Below are positions 15,466 through 42,780 of a DNA stretch of 44,428 bases, one piece after another. The number at the start of each line of letters is the position of its first letter. The stretch's first letter is position 1. The notes under the pieces were generated by a model. The model was not told the DNA's origin and ran no database searches. It saw only the letters and a program-made list of their open reading frames with translations. A program made the translations under genes and the position numbers. This DNA comes from a virus: the IMG/VR virus record IMGVR_UViG_3300044815_000097, positions 1 to 44,428 of that record, one strand, 5' to 3'.

Positions 15466-18198
15466 ATGGCCCTGTTCACCCCGGTCACCGAGCTCTTCAT
15501 CGACGGGTCCTGGGTCGACGTGTCCGACGACGTGCAGTACGAGACCGGTGTCGCCATCACCCGGGGCCGCGACGACGAACAGGGAACGATCACCCCGTCA
15601 CGGCTCAACCTGACCCTGAACAACCAGGATGGGATCTACTCCAACCGCAACCCCATGTCGCCCTACTACGGGCTGCTGGGCCGCAACACCCCACTGCGGC
15701 AACGCCAGGGCGGCATCGTGTCCCACCTGCGCATCAACGGCGACAGCGGCGGCAACGCGTCCGCACCGGACACTGCCGCCCTCGACATCGTCGGCGACAT
15801 CGACGTCCGCGCCGACATCGAGCCCGACACCTGGACGCCCACCCTCGACCAGGTCATCGCCTCGAAGACCAACCTGACCGGCGACCAACGCTCCTGGTAC
15901 ATGCAGCTGACCAGGTACGGGCGGATCGAGTTCGGGTGGTCCGCCGCCGGGACATTCCCCTACGAGCGGGTCTCGTCGACCGCGTCCGTCACGACCGCCG
16001 GCCGGGTGTCCGTCCGGGCCACCCTCGACGTCGTCTCCGGCGCGAACCACGTGATCACGTTCTACACCTCCGACTCGGTCACCGGAACGTGGACACAGCT
16101 CGGCCTACCCATCACCACAGCCGGCGCGACCAGCATCTTCGCCGGCACAGCCAACCTCGAGGTCGGCACCGGCAACAACGGGTCGACCGTGTTCACCGGC
16201 ACCACCGCGTTCCAGGGCAAGGTGTACCGCCTGCAGGTCCTGCAGGGCATCGCCGGCACGGTCCGCGCCGACGCCGACTTCTCCGCCCAGCCGATCGACA
16301 CCACCTCGTTCTCCGACGGCACGAACACCTGGACCGTCCTGGACCCGGCAGTCATCACCTCCGACGGGGTGCGGTTCTACGGCGAAGTCGCCGCCCTGCC
16401 GTCCAAGTGGGACCTCAGCGGGAAGGTGGTGTGGGCGCCGCTCGAGGCGGCCGGGATCACCCGCCGCCTCACCCAGGGCGCCCCGACCCTCCGCTCGCCG
16501 ATCTACCGCAACTTCCTGCGATACGGGCCGTCCGGGTACTGGCCGCTCGAGGACGGCTCCGAGTCGGAGACCGCCGCGTCCGCCGTCCCCGCCGGGCGTC
16601 CGGCCACGGTCAACGCTGTGACGTTCGCCGGCGACGACACCCTGCCCGGCGGCGACGTCGCGCTCACCCTCAACGACACCACCGCCCGGGTGAACGGGCA
16701 GGTCACCCAGTCCACCGGCGGCACCGGGTGGTCTTTCACGTTCTTCTTCAAGCTCCCGGCGATCCCCGGCGCGTCGAACCAGCTGATGTCGTTCTCGTCG
16801 TCGGGCACGGCCCAGCGGTGGGTCCTGTCCGTCACGTCGACCTCGTACCAGCTCGACGCCTACGACGTGAACGGGACCAGCCTGATCACGTCGGTGACCA
16901 CGTTCGGGACCGGCGCGGAACCGAATCAGTGGGTCGCGGTTCAGGTCGCCACGTCGGTGTCGGGCGCCACAGTTACCTGGTCGCATGTGTGGCATGCGGT
17001 CGGCGCCGACATCATCTACAGCGCCACCGGCACCTACGCCGGCACACCCGGGTCGGTGCGCGGCTGGTCCATCGTGGGCCAGTCCGCGCTCGTCGGCGCA
17101 GCGTTCGCCCACGTGTGGGCCGGCCCGAACGCCCTGCCGTTCGTCACGACCGAGTTCGAAGCCGTGTCGAACGGGTGGCGCGGCGAGCGGGCAGTTGCCC
17201 GGCTGACCCGGCTGTGCGCCGAGGAGAACGTTCCGCTGGTGGTCCGCGACCCGAACGGCGACTCCGCCCTGATGGGCCGCCAGGGCATCGGCACGTTCAT
17301 CGACCTGCTCGCGGACTGCGCCACCGCCGACCTGGGGATCCTGTACGAGCCCCGCGACCGGCTGGCGATCGGGTACGTCGCCCGGTCCGCCCTGTACGGG
17401 CAGCCGTCGCCGACCTTGTCGTACGGCACGCACATCGCGGAGCCGTTCGACCCGGTTGACGACGACCAGCAGCTGCAGAACCGGGTCACCGTGTCCCGGC
17501 CCGGCGGCAGCTCGGCGACCGCCCAGCAGGACACCGGCCCCCTGTCGGTCCTGCCGCCGCCGGCCGGCGTCGGCGTGTACGAGGCCAGCGCGGACGCGAA
17601 TGTCTACACGGACGACCAGCTGCCCGACGTCGCCGGGTGGCTGGTGCACCTCGGCACCCTCGACGCCCTGCGCTACCCGCAGATCACGTTGAAGCTGAAC
17701 AGCACGGCGTTCACCGGCAGCACCGCCGTGACCGCGGCCGCCGCCGGCCTGGACATCGGGCGGCAGCTGACGGTGGATTCCCTGCCGTCGTGGCTGCCAC
17801 CGGACCCGGCGGAAACCCTGATCCAGGGCTACACGGAGCGGATCACCCCGTACGACTGGGACCTGACGTTCAACACCACTCCGGGCGAGCTGTGGGATGT
17901 GGCGCACGCCGACAGCGCCCGCGTCGACACCGACGGCTCCACCCTCGCCGCCGGCGCGACGACCACCGCCACATCGCTGTCAGTCGCCTCGGTGGCCGGC
18001 GGGGTGCTGTGGACCCTCACCGCCGCGTCGTGGCCGTTCTCCATCGCCATGGGCGGGGAGAAACTCACCGTCACCGCGGTGGCCGGCGCAACGTCCCCGC
18101 AGACCCTGACCGTCACCCGGTCGGTCAACGGCGTCGTCAAAGCGCACCTCGCCGGCACGGCCATCCGGCTGTGGACCCCGTCGTACGTGGCCCTGTAG
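15466..18198 (+). CDS. large tail-tip protein, fused distal tail / tail lysin-like with lectin domains
   Basis: A 910-residue protein starting one base after the tape measure stop. Residues 1-90 resemble the opening of distal tail proteins (ELFIDGSWVDVSDDVQ). Two LamG/concanavalin-like beta domains follow (about 95-270 and 355-560; the second starts GYWPLEDGSESE). The C-terminal 300 residues resemble the hub half of tail-associated proteins. It would form the tip that meets the host surface. Only one small tail gene follows, so most adsorption functions seem to sit here. Confidence 0.8.
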   Translation: MALFTPVTELFIDGSWVDVSDDVQYETGVAITRGRDDEQGTITPSRLNLTLNNQDGIYSNRNPMSPYYGLLGRNTPLRQRQGGIVSHLRINGDSGGNASAPDTAALDIVGDIDVRADIEPDTWTPTLDQVIASKTNLTGDQRSWYMQLTRYGRIEFGWSAAGTFPYERVSSTASVTTAGRVSVRATLDVVSGANHVITFYTSDSVTGTWTQLGLPITTAGATSIFAGTANLEVGTGNNGSTVFTGTTAFQGKVYRLQVLQGIAGTVRADADFSAQPIDTTSFSDGTNTWTVLDPAVITSDGVRFYGEVAALPSKWDLSGKVVWAPLEAAGITRRLTQGAPTLRSPIYRNFLRYGPSGYWPLEDGSESETAASAVPAGRPATVNAVTFAGDDTLPGGDVALTLNDTTARVNGQVTQSTGGTGWSFTFFFKLPAIPGASNQLMSFSSSGTAQRWVLSVTSTSYQLDAYDVNGTSLITSVTTFGTGAEPNQWVAVQVATSVSGATVTWSHVWHAVGADIIYSATGTYAGTPGSVRGWSIVGQSALVGAAFAHVWAGPNALPFVTTEFEAVSNGWRGERAVARLTRLCAEENVPLVVRDPNGDSALMGRQGIGTFIDLLADCATADLGILYEPRDRLAIGYVARSALYGQPSPTLSYGTHIAEPFDPVDDDQQLQNRVTVSRPGGSSATAQQDTGPLSVLPPPAGVGVYEASADANVYTDDQLPDVAGWLVHLGTLDALRYPQITLKLNSTAFTGSTAVTAAAAGLDIGRQLTVDSLPSWLPPDPAETLIQGYTERITPYDWDLTFNTTPGELWDVAHADSARVDTDGSTLAAGATTTATSLSVASVAGGVLWTLTAASWPFSIAMGGEKLTVTAVAGATSPQTLTVTRSVNGVVKAHLAGTAIRLWTPSYVAL

Positions 18199-22729: not shown

Positions 22730-24850
22730 CTACTTGCTCTCGACCTGCCGGCGCTGCATCGCCGCCTCAAGAGCGGCCAGGTCGAAGCCTTGACCCTTGC
22801 CCTTCTCGAAGTGCTTCGGGTCATGCACTGACTTGCCGGCCACACCCAGGTCGCGCAGCTGCGCAGAGATCGCCGCAGGGGTCAGATCGGCGTAGTGCTC
22901 CGGCATCTCCTGCGACATCCGGGCGGCCAGCTCCGGCCACGAGATCCGGGCTTCGCCGGCGTAGAACACCGACCGGGCGTCCGCCATGACGTCGCGAGCC
23001 AACCGCGCGGCTTCCTCGCCGATGGCGGCACCGGACAGCGTGCCGAGGCGCTCCCGGTGACGGCGAGCCGCGATGAGGATCTTCTCCGCGTCCCCGTGGT
23101 CAGCGAGGAACGTCCGGACCGTCGGAGTCAGGTCAGACGCCCCGTAGAGGATGCCGACACCGCGATAGTCCTTCGTCCCGTTCGTCCCGTCACCGATCGG
23201 CAGCGCGGACGCGTCGTAGCCCTCTGAGTAGGCGTCGCCGCCCAGCACGGCCTCGCTGACCAGGCGGTTGCCGCACCGCAACGCGAAGCGGACCTGGTGG
23301 TTGTCGCGGAACCGGTTGAACAGCCGCCCCACGTCGCCGGAGCCGACCCCGGAGGGCTTCTGTGAGCTGTCCAGCAGGATCACGCCGGCGGACGGGCCCT
23401 GCGCCATGATGCGGCCCCACTTGCCGGCGATCCGCTTGTTGTAGTCCTGGTCCTCGGTTTCGAAGTAGACCTGGAACTCCTCACCAGCCACCACCCACAC
23501 CCGCAGGGCCGGGTACCGCGGGTCCCGGGCCAGCTCCTCGGTGAGCTTGCCTTCGGGGCACATCTCCACCGGCAGCGACGACAGGATGTCGTTGACCTCG
23601 GCGATGTGGGCGAGGACCTCGTCGAGCATTTCCTCCAGGTGGGTGAGCGGGTCGTTGTCGCGAGGGTTCGGGGCGTCCCCGACAACCCACCGGTGCGCGA
23701 CCAGGCGGAACTTGTCGTAGTCGGAGCTCTTCTTCCCGTCCGCGCCGAGGATCTTCACCCACGGGTCGAGCGCCGCGAACAGCAGGATCAGCCGCACGAA
23801 GAACGTCTTGCCCCGGCGCGGCATGGCGCCGATCAGGATCGAGTTCCACAGCAGCGTCAGGGTGACGAGCCGGTCCCGCTCGTCCTTGCCGAGCCGGATC
23901 GCCCGCCAGATGTTGCGCTGCTTCAGGTCGAGCATGTCCGTGCGCCCGACCGGGATGGCCAGGGGGTCCTGGTCGGCGACGAACAGCTGATGGCGCCGCT
24001 CCGACGTCTTGTCCTTGGTGAGGAACACCTGCTGGGCGGTCACGTCCAGCCCCGAGGCGATCTTCTCCTTGACCTTGACCGCGTCGGCGAAGCAGCCGCC
24101 GAACGGCAGGTGGACGACGACCTGCGACCCGCTGTCCCTTTCGTCGCGCGACATCTGCGACCCGAAGTCGATGACCTGGTCAGGCTTGTTCGGGTTGCCC
24201 AGGTTGGCGGCGTAGTAGGCGCGCAGCACCACGTCGGAGTTGATGCGGCGCTGCGCGTGGGCGACCACCGCGGTCCGGACGATCGGCTTGTTCGCCGGCC
24301 GGCCCAGGTGCGCCAGCCCAGGCAGGGCGGTGAGGATCGCGAGGACGGTCACCCAGGTGGGCTGGTTCATCAGGACCACCACCACGACCACCGCGGCGAC
24401 CAGCTCGGCGAGCAGGATCAGGCCGCGGAACAGGCGGATCGCCCGGGCCTTGTCGTGCAGCTTGTCCCACTCGGCGGCGTCGCCGTTGCTGGCGGCCTGC
24501 TGCCGCAGCTTCGACGACTCGTCCACCCACCACCAGCGGATCTGCCTGCCCAGCAGGGCAAACACGCCGACCAAGCCCCAGAACACGGCCAGGGGCAGGT
24601 ACTGGAACGGCAGCCGCACCGCGTGCACGGCGGTGCGGTGCGCGGCCAGGTGGGTGTTGCGCTTGACGGTCTTCTTGATCCCGGCGACGGTGCGCAGGTT
24701 CGCCGGGATGATCGGCACCAGCTCGTGGGTGCGGGCGATCACGTCGACGAAGACGGGCGCCCGGTCGGGGCGCGGCTCGTCGTCGTCGAGGGCCAGGTCG
24801 TAGTGCGAGTCGTACGTCTGCGACCCGTCGGCGGGGACCTGCTCTGCCAT
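22730..24850 (-). CDS. TraB-like DNA translocase (FtsK/SpoIIIE family)
   Basis: A 706-residue membrane pump of the kind that moves double-stranded DNA between Streptomyces mycelia. Order: an acidic N-terminus, hydrophobic segments near residues 84-101 and 141-182, then the ATPase domain with Walker A GAMPRRGKT (341-349), a Walker B-like VWVVAGEE (451-458) and a conserved DSSQKPS (494-500). The last 75 residues (ISWPELAARMSQ..., LTPAAISAQLRDLGV) look like the winged-helix DNA-recognition part. Walker B has Gly-Glu-Glu where Asp-Glu is usual. An AAGGAGG ribosome site precedes the ATG. Chromosomal FtsK is unlikely: too short, and in a transfer-type operon. Confidence 0.87.
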   Translation of the reverse strand: MAEQVPADGSQTYDSHYDLALDDDEPRPDRAPVFVDVIARTHELVPIIPANLRTVAGIKKTVKRNTHLAAHRTAVHAVRLPFQYLPLAVFWGLVGVFALLGRQIRWWWVDESSKLRQQAASNGDAAEWDKLHDKARAIRLFRGLILLAELVAAVVVVVVLMNQPTWVTVLAILTALPGLAHLGRPANKPIVRTAVVAHAQRRINSDVVLRAYYAANLGNPNKPDQVIDFGSQMSRDERDSGSQVVVHLPFGGCFADAVKVKEKIASGLDVTAQQVFLTKDKTSERRHQLFVADQDPLAIPVGRTDMLDLKQRNIWRAIRLGKDERDRLVTLTLLWNSILIGAMPRRGKTFFVRLILLFAALDPWVKILGADGKKSSDYDKFRLVAHRWVVGDAPNPRDNDPLTHLEEMLDEVLAHIAEVNDILSSLPVEMCPEGKLTEELARDPRYPALRVWVVAGEEFQVYFETEDQDYNKRIAGKWGRIMAQGPSAGVILLDSSQKPSGVGSGDVGRLFNRFRDNHQVRFALRCGNRLVSEAVLGGDAYSEGYDASALPIGDGTNGTKDYRGVGILYGASDLTPTVRTFLADHGDAEKILIAARRHRERLGTLSGAAIGEEAARLARDVMADARSVFYAGEARISWPELAARMSQEMPEHYADLTPAAISAQLRDLGVAGKSVHDPKHFEKGKGQGFDLAALEAAMQRRQVESK

Positions 24851-29530: not shown

Positions 29531-29553
29531 GGTTCGAGTCCTCAGCAGGGGCC
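29531..29553 (+). other. candidate attP core, tRNA T-arm-like
   Basis: GGTTCGAGTCCTCAGCAGGGG contains GGTTCGAGTCC, the T-loop and inner stem of a tRNA, and overlaps the 3' end of the integrase gene (stop at 29542-29544). Integrases of this kind often use a tRNA 3' end as attB with the attP core beside int. The 3' part does not fit an acceptor stem I can name, so the tRNA identity is open. Confidence 0.45.
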
Positions 29554-30411
29554 AGGGCTGAATGTGGGGAGCGTCTGGATAGCAGCCAGACGCTCCTCGT
29601 TCGTCACCAGGGTGTAGATCGCGGTCGTCGTCGGCGACGAATGCCGCATCAGCTCCTGAGTACGGCGGATGTCCTTCGTCGTGCGGTACAGATTCGTGCC
29701 GTACCAGTGCCGCAGTCGGTGCAACCCCACCCCCGGCATGCCGAGGTGACGCCGGAAGTAGACCGCCGTGCGGATGCTGACCCACTTCGCGTTGGCCGGC
29801 TCCCCCACGTCATTCCATGCCACCGGCCCCCTGGGCAGGTCTTTCACGGCGTCCCAGATCGCCGGATGAGTGGGCAGCACCCCCGGTCGCCCACCCTTCC
29901 CGGCCAGAACGAGCAGGTTGTCCTCGGTGATGTCCTGCCTACTCAGACCGGCGATCTCGATGGACCTCAGGCCGGCATAGGCGCCGAAGAGCGCCCAGGT
30001 CCGATAGGGCTCGGCAGACTCGGTAAGAATGCGACGCAGCTGGGCGTCAGAAACAGGCCTGGGTAGGCCCCGAGGGCTCTTTGGGCGGGGCAGCAGCGCG
30101 GACGGGTCGAAGTCGAGCTTCGGGTCGTACGGGTTACATGCCCACACGAAGAACGCGCGAACGGTGCCGTAGTACGCCTCGCGCGTGGCTGGCCCGAAGC
30201 GGTCTTGGTAGACCCAGGCGGACAGCTCGACGGAGGTAGCAGCTTCGATGCCGTAGGGCATCGCCGCGTTAATCCGCCCGAGGATTCCTTCACGGTGGGT
30301 GATGGTGCGCGGTGAGCTGTTGCGCTTCCGCAGCCACTCCAGATATTGGTCGATCAGTGGACTCATGCTGGTCATGCTGCGTTTACGGGGACGCAACAGG
30401 GAAGAGGTCAC
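29542..30411 (-). CDS. int: tyrosine site-specific integrase
   Basis: A 289-residue recombinase that would integrate and excise the element. N-terminal SAM-like core-binding domain (about 16-100). Catalytic residues: Arg149 in AGLRSIEI, Lys172 in GKGGRPG, His231-x-x-Arg234 in HRLRHW, His257 in RHSS, Tyr266 in AIYT. All are present. The GTG start overlaps the repressor stop (GTGA), so the two are co-translated; an ATG 36 bases inside (30375) is an alternative start. A terminator and the candidate attP sit at its 3' end. Confidence 0.93.
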   Translation of the reverse strand: MTSSLLRPRKRSMTSMSPLIDQYLEWLRKRNSSPRTITHREGILGRINAAMPYGIEAATSVELSAWVYQDRFGPATREAYYGTVRAFFVWACNPYDPKLDFDPSALLPRPKSPRGLPRPVSDAQLRRILTESAEPYRTWALFGAYAGLRSIEIAGLSRQDITEDNLLVLAGKGGRPGVLPTHPAIWDAVKDLPRGPVAWNDVGEPANAKWVSIRTAVYFRRHLGMPGVGLHRLRHWYGTNLYRTTKDIRRTQELMRHSSPTTTAIYTLVTNEERLAAIQTLPTFSPGPC

Positions 30412-32761: not shown

Positions 32762-33538
32762 ATGTCCACACCTGTCCTGAACCTCGACACCCTGCACCTC
32801 GACAAAGGCAGCCACCCCGACCGGGAAGCCGGGATGTGCCTGCTCGAGGCGGCCGCGTTCATGGCCGGCGAGCACCACTCCGACAGCCCGAGTTGTGTGT
32901 CGTCGGTGCTGGGATCGTTCGGCCGCAGCCTCAACGACCGGCTCGACGACACCAAACGGCAGCAGCTCAAGCCGATTCTGCCCAGCCTCCTCAACACCGC
33001 GGGCGACGGCCTCGACGAGCAGCGCGGCTACCTGGCCCTGGACTGGCTGATCCGTACGTACACCCCGGCGTGGCTGGACCTGGCCGGCCTTACCGCCGAA
33101 GCCACGGAGCTGCGCGAGCTGCGCCGCATCGTCGACCTCGCCACCGCCCAGGCCGCAGGGCCGGTAGTGCGCGCCGGACAGACAAAGGCGGCCGCCGCTT
33201 GGGCCGCCGCTTGGGCCGCCGCTGGGGACGCCGCTGGGGACGCCGCTTGGGACGCCGCTTGGGCCGCCGCTGGGGACGCCGCTCGGGACGCCGCTGGGGA
33301 CGCCGCTCGGGCCGCCGCTCGGGACGCCGCTCGGGCCGCCGCTCGGGCCGCCGCTCGGGACGCCGCTTGGGCCGCCGCTCGGGACGCCGCTTGGGCCGCC
33401 GCTTGGGCCGCCGCTGGGGCCGCCGCTGGGGACGCCGCTTGGGCCGCCGCTCGGGACGCCTTGAAGCCGACCGTCACCCAGCTCCAGGACAGCGCCATCG
33501 ACCTGTACCGCCGCATGGCCGCCCCGGCGGCCTCCTGA
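32762..33538 (+). CDS. protein with 22 tandem AA[WRG][AD] tetrapeptide repeats
   Basis: A 258-residue protein. Residues 1-140 are an alpha-helical head (LLEAAAFMAGEHHSDSPSC); residues about 145-232 consist of 22 four-residue repeats, then a helical tail LKPTVTQLQDSAIDLYRRM. Each unit is Ala-Ala-X-Y with X = Trp (8), Arg (8) or Gly (6) and Y = Ala or Asp (11 each). Similar Ala-rich repeat proteins occur in actinobacteria and their phages without known role. RBS GGGAGGG. Confidence 0.82.
   Translation: MSTPVLNLDTLHLDKGSHPDREAGMCLLEAAAFMAGEHHSDSPSCVSSVLGSFGRSLNDRLDDTKRQQLKPILPSLLNTAGDGLDEQRGYLALDWLIRTYTPAWLDLAGLTAEATELRELRRIVDLATAQAAGPVVRAGQTKAAAAWAAAWAAAGDAAGDAAWDAAWAAAGDAARDAAGDAARAAARDAARAAARAAARDAAWAAARDAAWAAAWAAAGAAAGDAAWAAARDALKPTVTQLQDSAIDLYRRMAAPAAS
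33194..33457 (+). repeat. 22-unit, 12-bp tandem repeat inside a gene
   Basis: Twenty-two direct units of GCC GCT NGG GMC. Only two positions vary among all units: N is T, C or G, and M is C or A. The other ten bases are invariant, showing recent expansion or homogenisation. The array is in frame, so length changes add or remove four residues. It also opens long shadow frames on both strands. Confidence 0.95.
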
Positions 33539-36768: not shown

Positions 36769-37085
36769 GCGGCCCGCAGACCGGCGACGTCATCCTCATC
36801 GGCCCCACCGCCGGCGCCCAATTCGCCGGCGGCCGCCACCTCATCATGCGCGTCAGCAAAATCACCGCCTCGAAATCCTGGGACGGCATGGCGTGGATCG
36901 ACGGCTACGTCCTCAACCCGCAAGGCGTCGCTACCGAACGCCGCGAGGTGTACGTCCAGGTCAACGGCCTACGCCCCGTCGCCAGGGCCGCCAACCGCCA
37001 CGCCGAAACGGTCAACGGCGGCCCCCGCCTGCCCCGGCAGCGCATCACCACCACCACACCACGACCCACCGGGAGCACCCGATGA
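36765..37085 (+). CDS. hypothetical early protein, beta-rich
   Basis: A 106-residue protein with a compact N-terminal beta part (GDVILIGPTAG...) and a basic Arg-rich tail. No recognised family. Ends on the WhiB-like gene start. Confidence 0.68.
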   Translation: MSGPQTGDVILIGPTAGAQFAGGRHLIMRVSKITASKSWDGMAWIDGYVLNPQGVATERREVYVQVNGLRPVARAANRHAETVNGGPRLPRQRITTTTPRPTGSTR

Positions 37086-37510
37086 CCAACCAAGGGCCCT
37101 GCACCGCCCGAACCCACGGCACCGCCAACGACTACCGCCACCACGGCTGCCGCTGCCCCGAAGCCCGCAAACTCGAAATGGCCCGCAAAGCGAAGTACGA
37201 GGTCGCCCGCACCAACCGCGACCGCGACCGGCCACCACCGCTCAGCGCCATCATCCCCGCCGCACCCGCCTTCATGACCAACCCCGCCCGGGCCTGCGCC
37301 GCCCCCGGCATCAACCCCGACCTGTTCTTCCCTGACCGCGGCGACAACCCGAAACCCGCCCAGAAGATCTGCCGCAAATGCCCCCTGCGGGCCGAATGCG
37401 CCGACTGGGCCATCGAGACCGGGCAGGCCCACGGCGTCTGGGGTGGCACCACACCGCCGCAACGCCGCCTGCCCATCCTCAACCGGCGCAAGGTGCGGGT
37501 GAACGCATGA
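37082..37510 (+). CDS. WhiB-like iron-sulfur regulator with extra N-terminal Cys site
   Basis: A 142-residue protein. Residues 68-125 form a WhiB domain: Cys72, Cys97, Cys100 and Cys106 would hold a [4Fe-4S] cluster, and GVWGG (118-122) is the hallmark turn. Upstream residues 7-25 (C7, C23, C25, with HGTANDYRHHGCRC) form an additional Cys/His patch, often a separate small phage protein. Phage WhiB proteins can act on host sigma factor and help block superinfection or reprogram the host. Basic C-terminus binds DNA. Confidence 0.9.
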   Translation: MTNQGPCTARTHGTANDYRHHGCRCPEARKLEMARKAKYEVARTNRDRDRPPPLSAIIPAAPAFMTNPARACAAPGINPDLFFPDRGDNPKPAQKICRKCPLRAECADWAIETGQAHGVWGGTTPPQRRLPILNRRKVRVNA

Positions 37511-39144: not shown

Positions 39145-41676
39145 ATGAACGAGGTCTTGACCGCAGCGCTCACCTGGCACGACCAGGGGTACTGCGTCTT
39201 GCCGACCCGCACCGACGGGTCCAAGGCGCCCGACGTCACGACCTGGAAGGCATACCAGAACGAAGCACCCAACCGGCAACGCGTCGAAGCATGGTTCGCC
39301 GACGACCACCCCGGCGTCGGCGTGCTCTGCGGCGCCATCAGCGGCAACCTCGAAATGCTCGAGCTCGAAGGCCGCGCCGTCACCGAAGGGGCCCTCGCCG
39401 ACCTGCAACACCTCATCGAGCAGTCCGGCCTCGCCGACCTGTGGCTGCGCATCACCCGAGACGGATACACCGAACGCACCCCATCCGGCGGCCTGCACTT
39501 CCTCTACCGAGTCGACGGCACGCCGGTTCCCGGCAACACCAAGCTCGCCAACCGGCCGGCCACCGACGCCGAGCTGGAGGCCAAGCCGAAGGAGACGGTC
39601 AAAGGCCTCGCCGAGACGCGCGGTGAAGGCGGATACGTCGTCGTCGCCCCGTCCCACGGCCCCACCCACCCCAGCGGCAAACCGTGGGAGCTGGTGCACG
39701 GCGGACCCGGGCAGGTCGCCACCATCACCGCCGACGAACGCGAGCAACTACACCGCCTGTTCCGCTGCCTCGACAAAATCCCCGTCGTCGAGCCTGCGCC
39801 GGCCCGGCCCCTGCAGGTCGTCCGCGGCACCACCGACGGCGCCACACCCGGCGACGACTTCGAAGCCAAGGTGCCCTGGGACGACCCGATGCTGCTCGGC
39901 GGCGCCGGGTGGCGGCCAACATTCAGCCAAGGCCACGTCACGTTCTGGCGCCGACCCGGCAAGGACACACCAGGCGTGTCAGCCACCACCGGCAAGGACC
40001 CGGCACGCGACCGGCTCTACGTGTTCAGCTCCGCCACCGAGTTCCCCACCGAAACACCCATCACCAAGTTCGGCGCGTACGCCCTGCTCCACCACGCCAA
40101 CGACTTCAAGGCCGCCGCCCGGGAACTCCGCCGGCTCGGCTACGGCGCGCCCCTGCCCAGCCCGTCCGAGCAGCAACGCGCCGCGATCGCCGACCTGGTC
40201 CCCGACGTCGCCGAACGCACCATGAGCTCTGTCGACGGCAACACCGTGCGGGTCCTCGCCGAACCCAAGGCCAAGCCCCAGTTCTTCGGCGCCACCCAGG
40301 ACGGCATGGCCCGCGCCCTCGTCGAACACCACGGGCACGAATTGCGCTACGTGCCCCAGCGCGGCAAATGGCTGGCCTGGGACGGGCACCGCTGGCAGTG
40401 GGACGACAACGAACGCCACCGCGAGCTCACCCTCGGCCTGGCCCGCCACCTGCCCGAAGACGACAAGGACTGGAAACTGTTCCGGCGCAGCATGCTGTCG
40501 TCGGCCGGCGTCACCGGCGCTACCCGCCTCGCCCAGTCCAACGCGAAAATCGTCGTCGGCTTCGACAAGCTCGACGCAGACCCGTGGGTGCTCAACACCC
40601 CCGGCGGCATCATCGACCTGCGCACCGGCGAGCTCAGCCCGCCCGACCCGGCCGCCCTGTGCACCAGGTCGACCAGCTGCGCCCCCGACACCGACGCCGA
40701 CCCGCGCCGGTGGCAGGAGTTCCTCGCCGACACGTTCGGCGCGGACCAGGCGCTCGTCGGCTACCTGCAACGCCTGCTCGGATACTCGGCTGTCGGCGTC
40801 GTCGGCGCCCACGTCCTCCCGTTCGCCCACGGCTCCGGCGGCAACGGCAAAGGCGTCTTCCTCGAGGCGCTCGCCGGGGTGCTCGGCGAGTACGCCACCA
40901 GCGCCCCGAACGGCTTCCTCATGCAGCAGCCGTTCCCCGGCCACGACACCGAGATCGCCCGTCTCGCCGGGGCCCGGATGGTGATCTGCTCCGAGGTCAA
41001 CGAGGACGACCGGTTCGACGAAGCCAAGGTCAAGATGCTGACCGGTGGCGACACCCTCACCGCCCGGTTCATGCGGCAGGACTACTTCACCTTCCAGCCC
41101 ACCCACCAGCTCTGGCTGATGGGCAACCACCAGCCCGCTGTCCGATCCGGCGGCCGATCGTTCTGGCGCCGGCTACGCCTCATCCCGTTCGACCACGAAG
41201 TACCCGAGGACAAGATCGAGGACGACCTGCAGGGCAAGCTCATCCGCGACCACGGCCCCGCCCTGCTCGCCTGGATCGCCGCCGGCGCGGCCGCCTACCA
41301 CCGCGGCGGCCTGGGCGAGCCCGACAGCGTCAAGGCCGCCACCGCTGAGTACGCCCACGACCAGGACTCCGTCGCCCGGTTCGTTGAGGAGTGCTGCCGG
41401 GTCGGCGGCGGTGCCCATGTCACCACCAAGGTCGCCAAGGTCCGCGAGGCGTACGAAGCGTGGTGCCAGACCGAGGGGGCGAAGCCCGTCACAGCGAAGC
41501 GGCTGACGATGGACCTGGACCGCAAATTCGGGGTCACCGGCCACCGCACCAAGGCGGCCCGGATGTACTCCAACATCACCGTTCTGGCCGACGGAAACCT
41601 GTCACCCGATTCTTCGAACCTGTCACCCGATTCTTCGAACCTGTCACCCGGGCGCGAAGAACAAGGCGGGTGGTGA
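39145..41676 (+). CDS. prim-pol / P4-type primase-helicase
   Basis: An 843-residue replication protein. Residues 1-200: bifunctional prim-pol domain (GYCVLPTRTDGSKAPDVTTW; GVGVLCGAISGNLEMLELEG; SGGLHFLYR). The acidic pair after the strand reads E-x-E (LELE) where D-x-D is usual. Middle: a linker. Residues 530-760: D5/P4-type SF3 helicase with Walker A GSGGNGKG (563-570), Walker B VICSEVNEDD and LMGNHQPAVR. The C-terminus carries 7-residue NLSPDSS repeats coded by the iteron cluster. RBS GGAG at 9 bases. Confidence 0.93.
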   Translation: MNEVLTAALTWHDQGYCVLPTRTDGSKAPDVTTWKAYQNEAPNRQRVEAWFADDHPGVGVLCGAISGNLEMLELEGRAVTEGALADLQHLIEQSGLADLWLRITRDGYTERTPSGGLHFLYRVDGTPVPGNTKLANRPATDAELEAKPKETVKGLAETRGEGGYVVVAPSHGPTHPSGKPWELVHGGPGQVATITADEREQLHRLFRCLDKIPVVEPAPARPLQVVRGTTDGATPGDDFEAKVPWDDPMLLGGAGWRPTFSQGHVTFWRRPGKDTPGVSATTGKDPARDRLYVFSSATEFPTETPITKFGAYALLHHANDFKAAARELRRLGYGAPLPSPSEQQRAAIADLVPDVAERTMSSVDGNTVRVLAEPKAKPQFFGATQDGMARALVEHHGHELRYVPQRGKWLAWDGHRWQWDDNERHRELTLGLARHLPEDDKDWKLFRRSMLSSAGVTGATRLAQSNAKIVVGFDKLDADPWVLNTPGGIIDLRTGELSPPDPAALCTRSTSCAPDTDADPRRWQEFLADTFGADQALVGYLQRLLGYSAVGVVGAHVLPFAHGSGGNGKGVFLEALAGVLGEYATSAPNGFLMQQPFPGHDTEIARLAGARMVICSEVNEDDRFDEAKVKMLTGGDTLTARFMRQDYFTFQPTHQLWLMGNHQPAVRSGGRSFWRRLRLIPFDHEVPEDKIEDDLQGKLIRDHGPALLAWIAAGAAAYHRGGLGEPDSVKAATAEYAHDQDSVARFVEECCRVGGGAHVTTKVAKVREAYEAWCQTEGAKPVTAKRLTMDLDRKFGVTGHRTKAARMYSNITVLADGNLSPDSSNLSPDSSNLSPGREEQGGW

Positions 41677-41873
41677 CGTCCATGGCCTCCACAAACCTGT
41701 CACCCCTGACCACCCCCCACAAACCTGTCACCTGCCACCTGAGCTGCGCAAACGCCTCAGCGATCCAGGTGACAGGTGACAGGTGTGACAGGTTTCTGAA
41801 CTTATCGAAAGAACGTGCGCACACACATGCATGCACATGTCCGGCGAACCTAGAAAACCTGTCACCTGTCACC
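41596..41873. repeat. iteron-like cluster CCTGTCACC, candidate replication origin
   Basis: Seven exact forward copies of CCTGTCACC: 41598, 41619, 41640, 41696, 41724, 41858 and 41865 (start positions), plus two exact reverse copies GGTGACAGG at 41768 and 41775, with near copies at 41784 and 41731. The first three are 21 bases apart and lie inside the primase gene; the rest are in the gap before the next gene. A less GC-rich stretch (41790-41860) sits among them. Repeat array, AT-richer DNA and a primase-helicase alongside make an origin the best reading; an operator is possible. Confidence 0.72.
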
Positions 41874-41884
41874 CGGAGCCCTCG

Positions 41885-42169
41885 ATGACCCGCCGGATCG
41901 GCCACTCGCTGGAGACCAGCCCGGCCATCGCGAAGCCCTGCCCGCGGTGCCGCCGGCCGTTGCTCACCGGGCTGGCCGAGGGCATCCACGCCTACGTCGA
42001 CATCACGCCACTCACCCCCGCCGGTGAGATCGCCGCCGTGCTCGCCGGGCGACAGACCTACACCCTGCGCCGCACCGGGCTCATCCAGCGCGACGCCTAC
42101 CGCCGCGCCGACCCGGCGCTCGCCAGCCCAGTCCTCGCCCAGCACGACTGCCTACGGAGGACCGCATGA
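41885..42169 (+). CDS. small zinc-ribbon protein
   Basis: A 94-residue protein (MTRRIGHSLETSPAIAKPCP) with CPRC and one further Cys near the end (HDC). ATG lies just after the iteron cluster. A longer upstream reading passes through the repeats and is not used. Family occurs in actinophages next to the primase; role unknown. Confidence 0.7.
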   Translation: MTRRIGHSLETSPAIAKPCPRCRRPLLTGLAEGIHAYVDITPLTPAGEIAAVLAGRQTYTLRRTGLIQRDAYRRADPALASPVLAQHDCLRRTA

Positions 42170-42780
42170 CGCCCATCGTGATCGGGCTCGACCTCAGCCT
42201 CACCGGCACCGGGGTGGCCAGCACCGCCGGCTGGACCGACGTCATCCGGCCGGCCGCCAAGCAGCGCGGCCACTACCGGCTGCAGCACATCAAGGCCACC
42301 ATCCTCGAGCTGATCCCCGCCGACGTCGCCCTGGTCGTCGTCGAAGGCCCGTCCTACGGCAGCCAGGCCGGGCAGGCTGGGCACCACGAGCGGGCCGGCC
42401 TGTGGTGGCTGGTCACCCACAGCCTGTGGAAAACCGATGTGCCGTTCGCCGTGGCCAGCCCCACCGCCCGCGCCAAGTACGCCACCGGCAAGGGCAACGC
42501 CGGCAAGGCCGACGTGGTCCGTGAGACCACCCGGCGCTTCGACTGGTTCACCGGCGGCGAAGACGAGGCCGACGCCCTGGTCCTCGCCGCCATGGGCGCC
42601 GACTGGCTGGGCCACCCGCTCGCCCCACTGCCCGCCACCCACCGCCAGGCCCTGGACAAGGTCCAATGGCCGGAAGGCCTCAACGTGCCTGCCACCGAGG
42701 ACCCGCTCAGGCCGTTCAGGGACGAGCGGCTGCCCCGTGGGGTCACCGTGGACACCATCACCGCCACTGAGGCGCTCTGA
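42166..42780 (+). CDS. RuvC-like Holliday junction resolvase
   Basis: A 204-residue nuclease with the RNase H-fold acidic residues of RuvC-like enzymes: Asp9 in GLDLS, Glu60 in VVVEGPSYG, and the acidic cluster EDEADA (132-137) at the end of the fold. It would cut branched DNA intermediates before packaging. Overlaps the upstream stop (ATGA). Confidence 0.88.
   Translation: MTPIVIGLDLSLTGTGVASTAGWTDVIRPAAKQRGHYRLQHIKATILELIPADVALVVVEGPSYGSQAGQAGHHERAGLWWLVTHSLWKTDVPFAVASPTARAKYATGKGNAGKADVVRETTRRFDWFTGGEDEADALVLAAMGADWLGHPLAPLPATHRQALDKVQWPEGLNVPATEDPLRPFRDERLPRGVTVDTITATEAL

Follow-up and report, generated by a model that had tools for sequence, protein, structure and literature searches.

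A candidate phage replication origin made of iterons at the 3′ end of a PrimPol-SF3-winged helix primase-helicase gene

The window, i.e., the whole 44,428-nucleotide stretch of the IMG/VR virus record IMGVR_UViG_3300044815_000097, carries a crowd of short repeats around the end of a primase-helicase gene, which raises the question of whether replication begins there and, if so, which protein reads the repeats. The answer proposed here, with a probability of about 0.87 and on the basis of sequence comparison, is that 41596-41873 is the replication origin of the phage and the cognate site of its own PrimPol-SF3-winged helix primase-helicase. The virus is a temperate tailed phage of the actinobacterial kind. 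Since the record carries terminase, portal, capsid, tape-measure, antirepressor and integrase genes (the integrase at 29542-30411 on the minus strand, phrog_1, E 1.2e-32), and a search of it for a terminal repeat found none, the plasmid-like life that had also been read from the repeats is unsupported.

In the 44,428-base record, CCTGTCACC occurs in nine exact copies, all at 41598-41873 (seven on the plus and two on the minus strand), with none elsewhere; the expectation for the window is 0.71, and nine copies were reached in 0 of 100 shuffles, which confirms the nine exact and at least two near copies of the original prediction. ACCTGTCACC is likewise found nine times in the window, always within the cluster, while the same sequence written backward, as a control, is found 0 times. 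Near copies with one mismatch lie within the cluster at 41731 and 41784, and a third such copy lies upstream at 41416. Over the whole window, however, matches to the iteron with at most one mismatch are not enriched (19 vs. 17.7 expected), so the signal is carried only by the exact copies. In 20 order-2 Markov replicas, the maximum was 3 copies of any 9-mer per 287 bp, and only one 9-mer cluster in the window is denser, namely a 12-bp tandem repeat at 33190-33460. This repeat, the densest of the window, consists of 22.6 copies of GGCCGCCGCTCG and lies within overlapping ORFs.

The less GC-rich stretch that had been described at the cluster was also found again: GC is 0.53-0.60 in most 100-bp windows of 41550-41899 (0.53 at 41750-41849), against 0.65-0.81 outside. 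When an AT-rich opening element was looked for beside the iterons, the GC minimum was just 0.53, and a perfectly alternating purine-pyrimidine tract occupies the spot (Table 1). The last codons of the primase hold three tandem iterons of 21 bp and therefore encode the peptide given in the table. In the relatives L009 and L010, the iterons differ from those of the window and the primase tail differs to match (DDDASS), as would be expected if the DNA sequence dictates the peptide of the primase tail.

Table 1. Coordinates of the candidate origin, its proposed initiator gene and the neighbouring genes in the window.
Feature	Position	Strand	Evidence
Primase-helicase gene, 843 aa, Prim-Pol + D5_N + DUF5906 + C-terminal Pox_D5/winged-helix; proposed initiator	39145..41676	+	Pfam, PHROGs
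Codons of the winged-helix (wH) domain; proposed iteron-binding domain	41332..41613	+	AF2 model, structural matches
Beta-hairpin wing, codons 798-808 (TGHRTKAARMY)	41536..41568	+	modelled hairpin; aligned residues co-vary with iteron in cluster K
Iterons 1-3, perfect 21-bp tandem repeat in primase gene 3′ end, encoding NLSPDSSNLSPDSSNLSPG	41596..41650	+	
Iterons 4-5 plus near copy CCTGCCACC at 41731	41695..41739	+	
Iterons 6-7 plus near copy 41784-41792, inverted; left flank of tract	41768..41792	-	
Alternating purine-pyrimidine tract ACGTGCGCACACACATGCATGCACATGT, perfect, 28 nt; proposed opening element	41813..41840	.	
Iterons 8-9, head-to-tail pair; right flank of tract, inverted relative to left flank	41857..41873	+	
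94-aa downstream gene from ATG 41885, weak phrog_10480, outside origin	41885..42169	+	
RuvC-like Holliday junction resolvase gene, next in operon	42166..42780	+	phrog_159 E 3e-40

The proposed reader of the iterons is the C-terminal domain of the primase-helicase. The AF2 model of helicase and wH together has a pLDDT of 88.2, and its matches in the PDB are ASFV PrimPol and monkeypox E5. The wH alone (pLDDT 78.9) is closest to the DNA-binding domains of RFX (Z 9.7 and 8.6), a eukaryotic transcription factor that reads DNA with its wing. After RFX comes the origin-binding domain of P4 (1ka8), with a middling Z of 7.6 and an rmsd of 3.0 over 77 residues, while the Z-alpha matches of the wH model were taken as generic winged-helix similarity. 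In addition, the family profile matches 7ola, entitled 'DNA primase' and presumably SaPI5 Rep, over the helicase and the C-terminus (E 4.7e-20).

Relatives of the primase were drawn from viral contigs, genomes and phage records, and their loci were numbered with the prefix L. The 3′ ends of their primase genes bear repeat clusters of their own, with sequences differing from the window's. In one orientation, the iteron is GGTGACAGGTT in the window, GGTGACCAGTT in L013, AGTGCCCAGTTT in L012, AGTGACACAAGT in L022, GGTGACACAAGTTT in L058, TGTGAACAGT in L016 (Lacipirellula) and AGGGACATG in L024, and cluster K iterons in the same orientation are AG(A/C/T)ACAGAT or GGCACAGAT. Because a search of viral contigs for exact AAACCTGTCACCTGTCACC gave no match, it is the place of the iterons, not their sequence, that is common to the relatives. 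After the removal of near copies, the primase clade of the window comprised 35 representatives, 21 of which carry some 8-mer in five or more exact copies close to the primase stop; the same was seen in 6 of 207 control regions. The other 14 have fewer than five exact copies in the searched region, some being degenerate (L020) and one displaced (L038); within the loci examined, L039, L040, L043 and L045 showed no iteron cluster. In L038, the array lies 1.6 kb further downstream of the primase stop and is still accompanied by a short alternating tract. This displaced origin-like unit (6490-6710 of L038), composed of AGTGACCG repeats, the tract and an inverted repeat, suggests that such a unit is portable.

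Among the lower-scoring loci, 0 of 23 representatives reached five copies in the exact 8-mer count, which is blind to doublet iterons; because the count misses doublets, the iterons of these loci rest on inspection and on the inverted recurrence of 8-mers. Doublet iterons such as TGACGCATCTGACGC flank an alternating tract 3′ of the primase stop in L061-L107, and in many of them the apparent start of a RuvC-like gene then follows. The primases of phiC31, Vash and Armstrong have neither of the two features, i.e., neither an iteron cluster nor an alternating tract.

The tract of the window has the inverted iterons 6-7 on its left and iterons 8-9 on its right, and the next longest alternating run of the window is 14 nt. 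Defined as alternation of at least 14 nt within 500 bp of the primase stop, such runs are present at 33 of 59 representative loci and in 8 of 805 control windows; split by group, they are found in 14 of the 35 representatives of the window's clade (cluster K included) vs. 5 of 535 controls; of the 24 lower-scoring D5 primase loci, 19 have one, vs. 3 of 270 controls. In a named relative, Acidithiobacillus phage AcaML1, three iterons are accompanied by a 20-nt tract and an iteron pair in inverted orientation, and Bacillus phage phi105, whose GC is low, has ATATATATATAC (12 nt) at the corresponding place. Since the cluster K loci have no alternating tract, the tract is inessential to this type of origin. 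Of 33 representatives, 30 have an exact 8-mer on one side of the tract and its inverted copy on the other; in 13 of the 30, however, 5 or more of some 46 placements made at random did equally well. The hairpin energy of the tracts showed no excess over alternation-preserving shuffles (mean z -0.20, SE 0.16, 51 distinct tracts); that is to say, hairpin stability is not the conserved property of the tract. A transition/transversion test of the tract over all pairs was dropped, as many pairs were misplaced, chiefly those with L065, and a second version was dropped with one family out of register and a partly circular design. In the rows pairing L030 with L149, L150 and L153, which have one common reference and are thus non-independent, the tract has 14 transitions and 0 transversions, and the flanks have 7 and 11.

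The matching of wing and iteron can be followed in a cluster-K-type set of 43 loci, made up of 31 contigs and 12 named phages (mycobacteriophages). In 39 of the 43, the iteron is of one of four kinds, and the kind tracks the wing loop with zero exceptions: the wing H-G goes with GGCACAGAT (15 loci), N-G before R-V-Y with AGCACAGAT (10 loci), N-G before R-(H/L/F/Y)-Y with AGAACAGAT (7 loci), and N-S with AGTACAGAT (7 loci). Angelica is an example of an N wing with AGCACAGAT, and Lunahalos of an H wing with GGCACAGAT. The four loci outside these kinds are L134 and L135 (R-G wing, mixed repeats), L137 (Q-G, TGGACAGAT) and L168 (AGGGACGG). In L134 and L135, the stretch 3′ of the primase stop mixes TCTACAGAT, GGCACAGAT and AGAACAGAT, and may perhaps be an origin caught between specificities.

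A scan was made of the 267 variable columns in the C-terminal 620 residues of the primase, using 37 different sequences. The first base of the iteron is fully explained by the N/H column of the wing, with N and A together in 23 of 23 sequences and H and G in 14 of 14; the next-best predictors of base 1 are the neighbours of that column, and base 3 is best explained by wing columns as well. On a tree from which the last 75 primase residues, the wing included, had been left out, the iteron class changes 17 times, base 1 changes 10 times and the N/H residue also 10 times. On supported branches, all 6 of 6 independent pairs agree in base 1 and N/H residue (p 0.031); for the wing V and C at base 3 the count is likewise 6 of 6, and for the wing S and T it is 4 of 4 (p 0.125). 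The matching rules were fixed before the 12 named phages were fetched, and the predictions for these were right in 9 of 9 cases, which is a weak test as all nine wings had already been seen; two further named phages have new wings outside the rules, and one has no motif. Taken as a whole, the pattern supports the proposal that the cluster K wing reads the variable bases of the iteron.

The same rule was scored by eye in other lineages, where it holds in 10 of 11. An N wing accompanies A at base 1 in L012, L024, L034, L038, L042, L046, L049 and L168, and an H wing accompanies G in L013 and GMA4, whereas Lactobacillus phage CL2 breaks the rule with an N wing and T at base 1. Left unscored were L039, L040, L043, L045 and L056 (cluster not found), L032, L036 and L037 (N-S wing, base 1 unconserved), and all loci with neither N nor H in the wing; the window belongs to the last group, so its wing is not covered by the rule.

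As for known systems, P4 alpha is likewise a multidomain primase-helicase with a C-terminal winged-helix origin-binding domain and iterons 3′ of its gene. In the P4 record, crr is annotated right behind the 3′ end of the alpha gene and contains type 1 iterons, most of which read GGTGAACA in one orientation, i.e., with one extra middle A against the window's GGTGACAG. Unlike the window, P4 has a second site, a distant ori; alternating runs of 14 nt or more were not found in P4, and its primase is of the Toprim type rather than Prim-Pol (PMC4234260, in part). In SaPI Rep and SCCmec Cch2, the C-terminal domain recognises iterons directly downstream of the gene, as reported in the passages of PMC7581432 at hand, which mention neither a wing-base rule nor an alternating tract for SaPI/SCCmec; these differ from the window in being staphylococcal islands, with AAGTG as the Cch2 iteron. 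In the architecture PrimPol-SF3-winged helix, pRN1 ORF904 has its origin in the 166 bp downstream of the gene, described in the relevant part of PMC4234260 as a 100-nt stem-loop without iterons. The window is unlike this type in having iterons. In short, an array of short iterons adjoins the proposed initiator gene of the window, as it does at the same place in relatives, and the gene of the window has the Pfam domains D5_N and Pox_D5 and a winged helix in the AF2 model. The cluster is accordingly classed as a putative initiator-bound iteron origin of the P4/SaPI kind, new in its variant features. The original prediction that the element has an origin of its own in this cluster very probably stands, given the position in relatives, the co-variation of repeat and primase wing, and the homologous arrangement in P4.

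Other explanations must be weighed against this one. The repeats lie directly 5′ of a gene start and might serve as operators, bound by a protein that regulates transcription of the operon from 41885 onwards, and iterons can indeed autoregulate too. As the repeats co-vary with the primase, specifically with its wing, and the downstream gene differs by lineage (an unknown protein in the window, RusA in cluster K, VRR-NUC in CL2), such a role by itself is very improbable; moreover, three iterons lie inside the primase gene, and the L038 array retains its short alternating tract even 1.6 kb away. A site that binds the initiator for another job, such as copy-number control or incompatibility, with the origin elsewhere, has a precedent in P4, which has both ori and a separate crr, the latter being the part 3′ of the primase gene. 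This is unlikely for the window, where no second cluster of its iteron was found and the alternating tract lies within the cluster. It has also been proposed, for pRN1 and Bordetella phage BIP-1, that the origin is a DNA stem-loop, an idea that its authors extended to phages (PMC4234260, in part). The inverted iterons of the window do form long complementary arms (41759-41794 with 41847-41882, 81%), and alternating tracts are partly self-complementary; a stem-loop in place of iterons is nonetheless the least probable of the explanations, as the hairpins of the 51 tracts are not favoured over shuffles, and a purely structural origin would give no reason for iteron bases to track protein residues. 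The data are thus in conflict with stem-loops as proposed, in that part of PMC4234260, for phages having the PrimPol-SF3-winged helix architecture.

The match of wing and iteron in cluster K could itself have arisen through inheritance of both in one short DNA block, without recognition, considering that no more than about 350 bp separates the wing codons from the iterons and that the inter-iteron spacers of near-identical pairs often differ along with the iterons. In three such pairs, differences inside the iterons are 14/63, 21/72 and 8/54, and those outside are 127/699, 112/681 and 137/729; since the spacers differ too, single switches may have involved a joint exchange of wing and origin. 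For the match as a whole, co-inheritance is quite unlikely: the stretch of primase tail that lies between wing and iterons is a poorer guide to the iteron class than the wing itself, the right-hand pair of L129/L170 differs solely at iteron bases with the rest of the stretch identical, and lineages that are unrelated (L012/L013, L024, L034, L038, L042, L046, L049, L168, GMA4) follow the same pairing of residue and base.

If the cluster is the phage's own initiator-bound origin, the wing of the wH would read the variable bases of each iteron, as extended from the co-variation in cluster K to the window, and the inverted iteron pairs on either side of the tract would seat two helicase hexamers facing each other. 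The tract would be the first to open, either through its weak pyrimidine-purine steps or by flipping into Z-DNA under negative supercoiling, after which the helicase would unwind the DNA and the PrimPol domain, judging from the family, would prime. As a wider and tentative generalisation, with slightly less than even odds, the PrimPol-SF3 initiators of phages from several bacterial groups may use inverted iteron pairs around an alternating, Z-DNA-prone opening tract in GC-rich genomes, together with a wing code (Asn-A, His-G) that allows repeated switches of specificity.

Among the annotated stretches examined, none marks an origin at the 3′ end of the primase, P4's excepted. A literature search, with subscription journals mostly outside its scope, returned no paper dealing with iterons or with alternating tracts in the origins of these phages, and the passages obtained from PMC3203893 mention the primase once and a replication origin not at all. 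The candidate gives a broad range of phages, cluster K mycobacteriophages among them, an origin that can be tested. The wing-iteron match is a natural series of repeated specificity switches, so that a recognition code of the initiator can be tested by swaps of single residues and bases, and the alternating tract may explain how an origin can open in a GC-rich genome that offers no AT-rich stretch.

Elsewhere in the window, the ORF at 22730-24850 on the minus strand, antisense to another long ORF, has a weak FtsK/SpoIIIE-like match (E 4e-12) and may be a chance frame. Right after the tape measure gene, a 910-aa ORF (15466-18198) matches phrog_5313, of unknown function, with an E of 1e-235. The ORF at 36893-37510 has WhiB-like matches at residues 133-198 and a weak HNH match at about 51-109, and is possibly two genes or a fusion.
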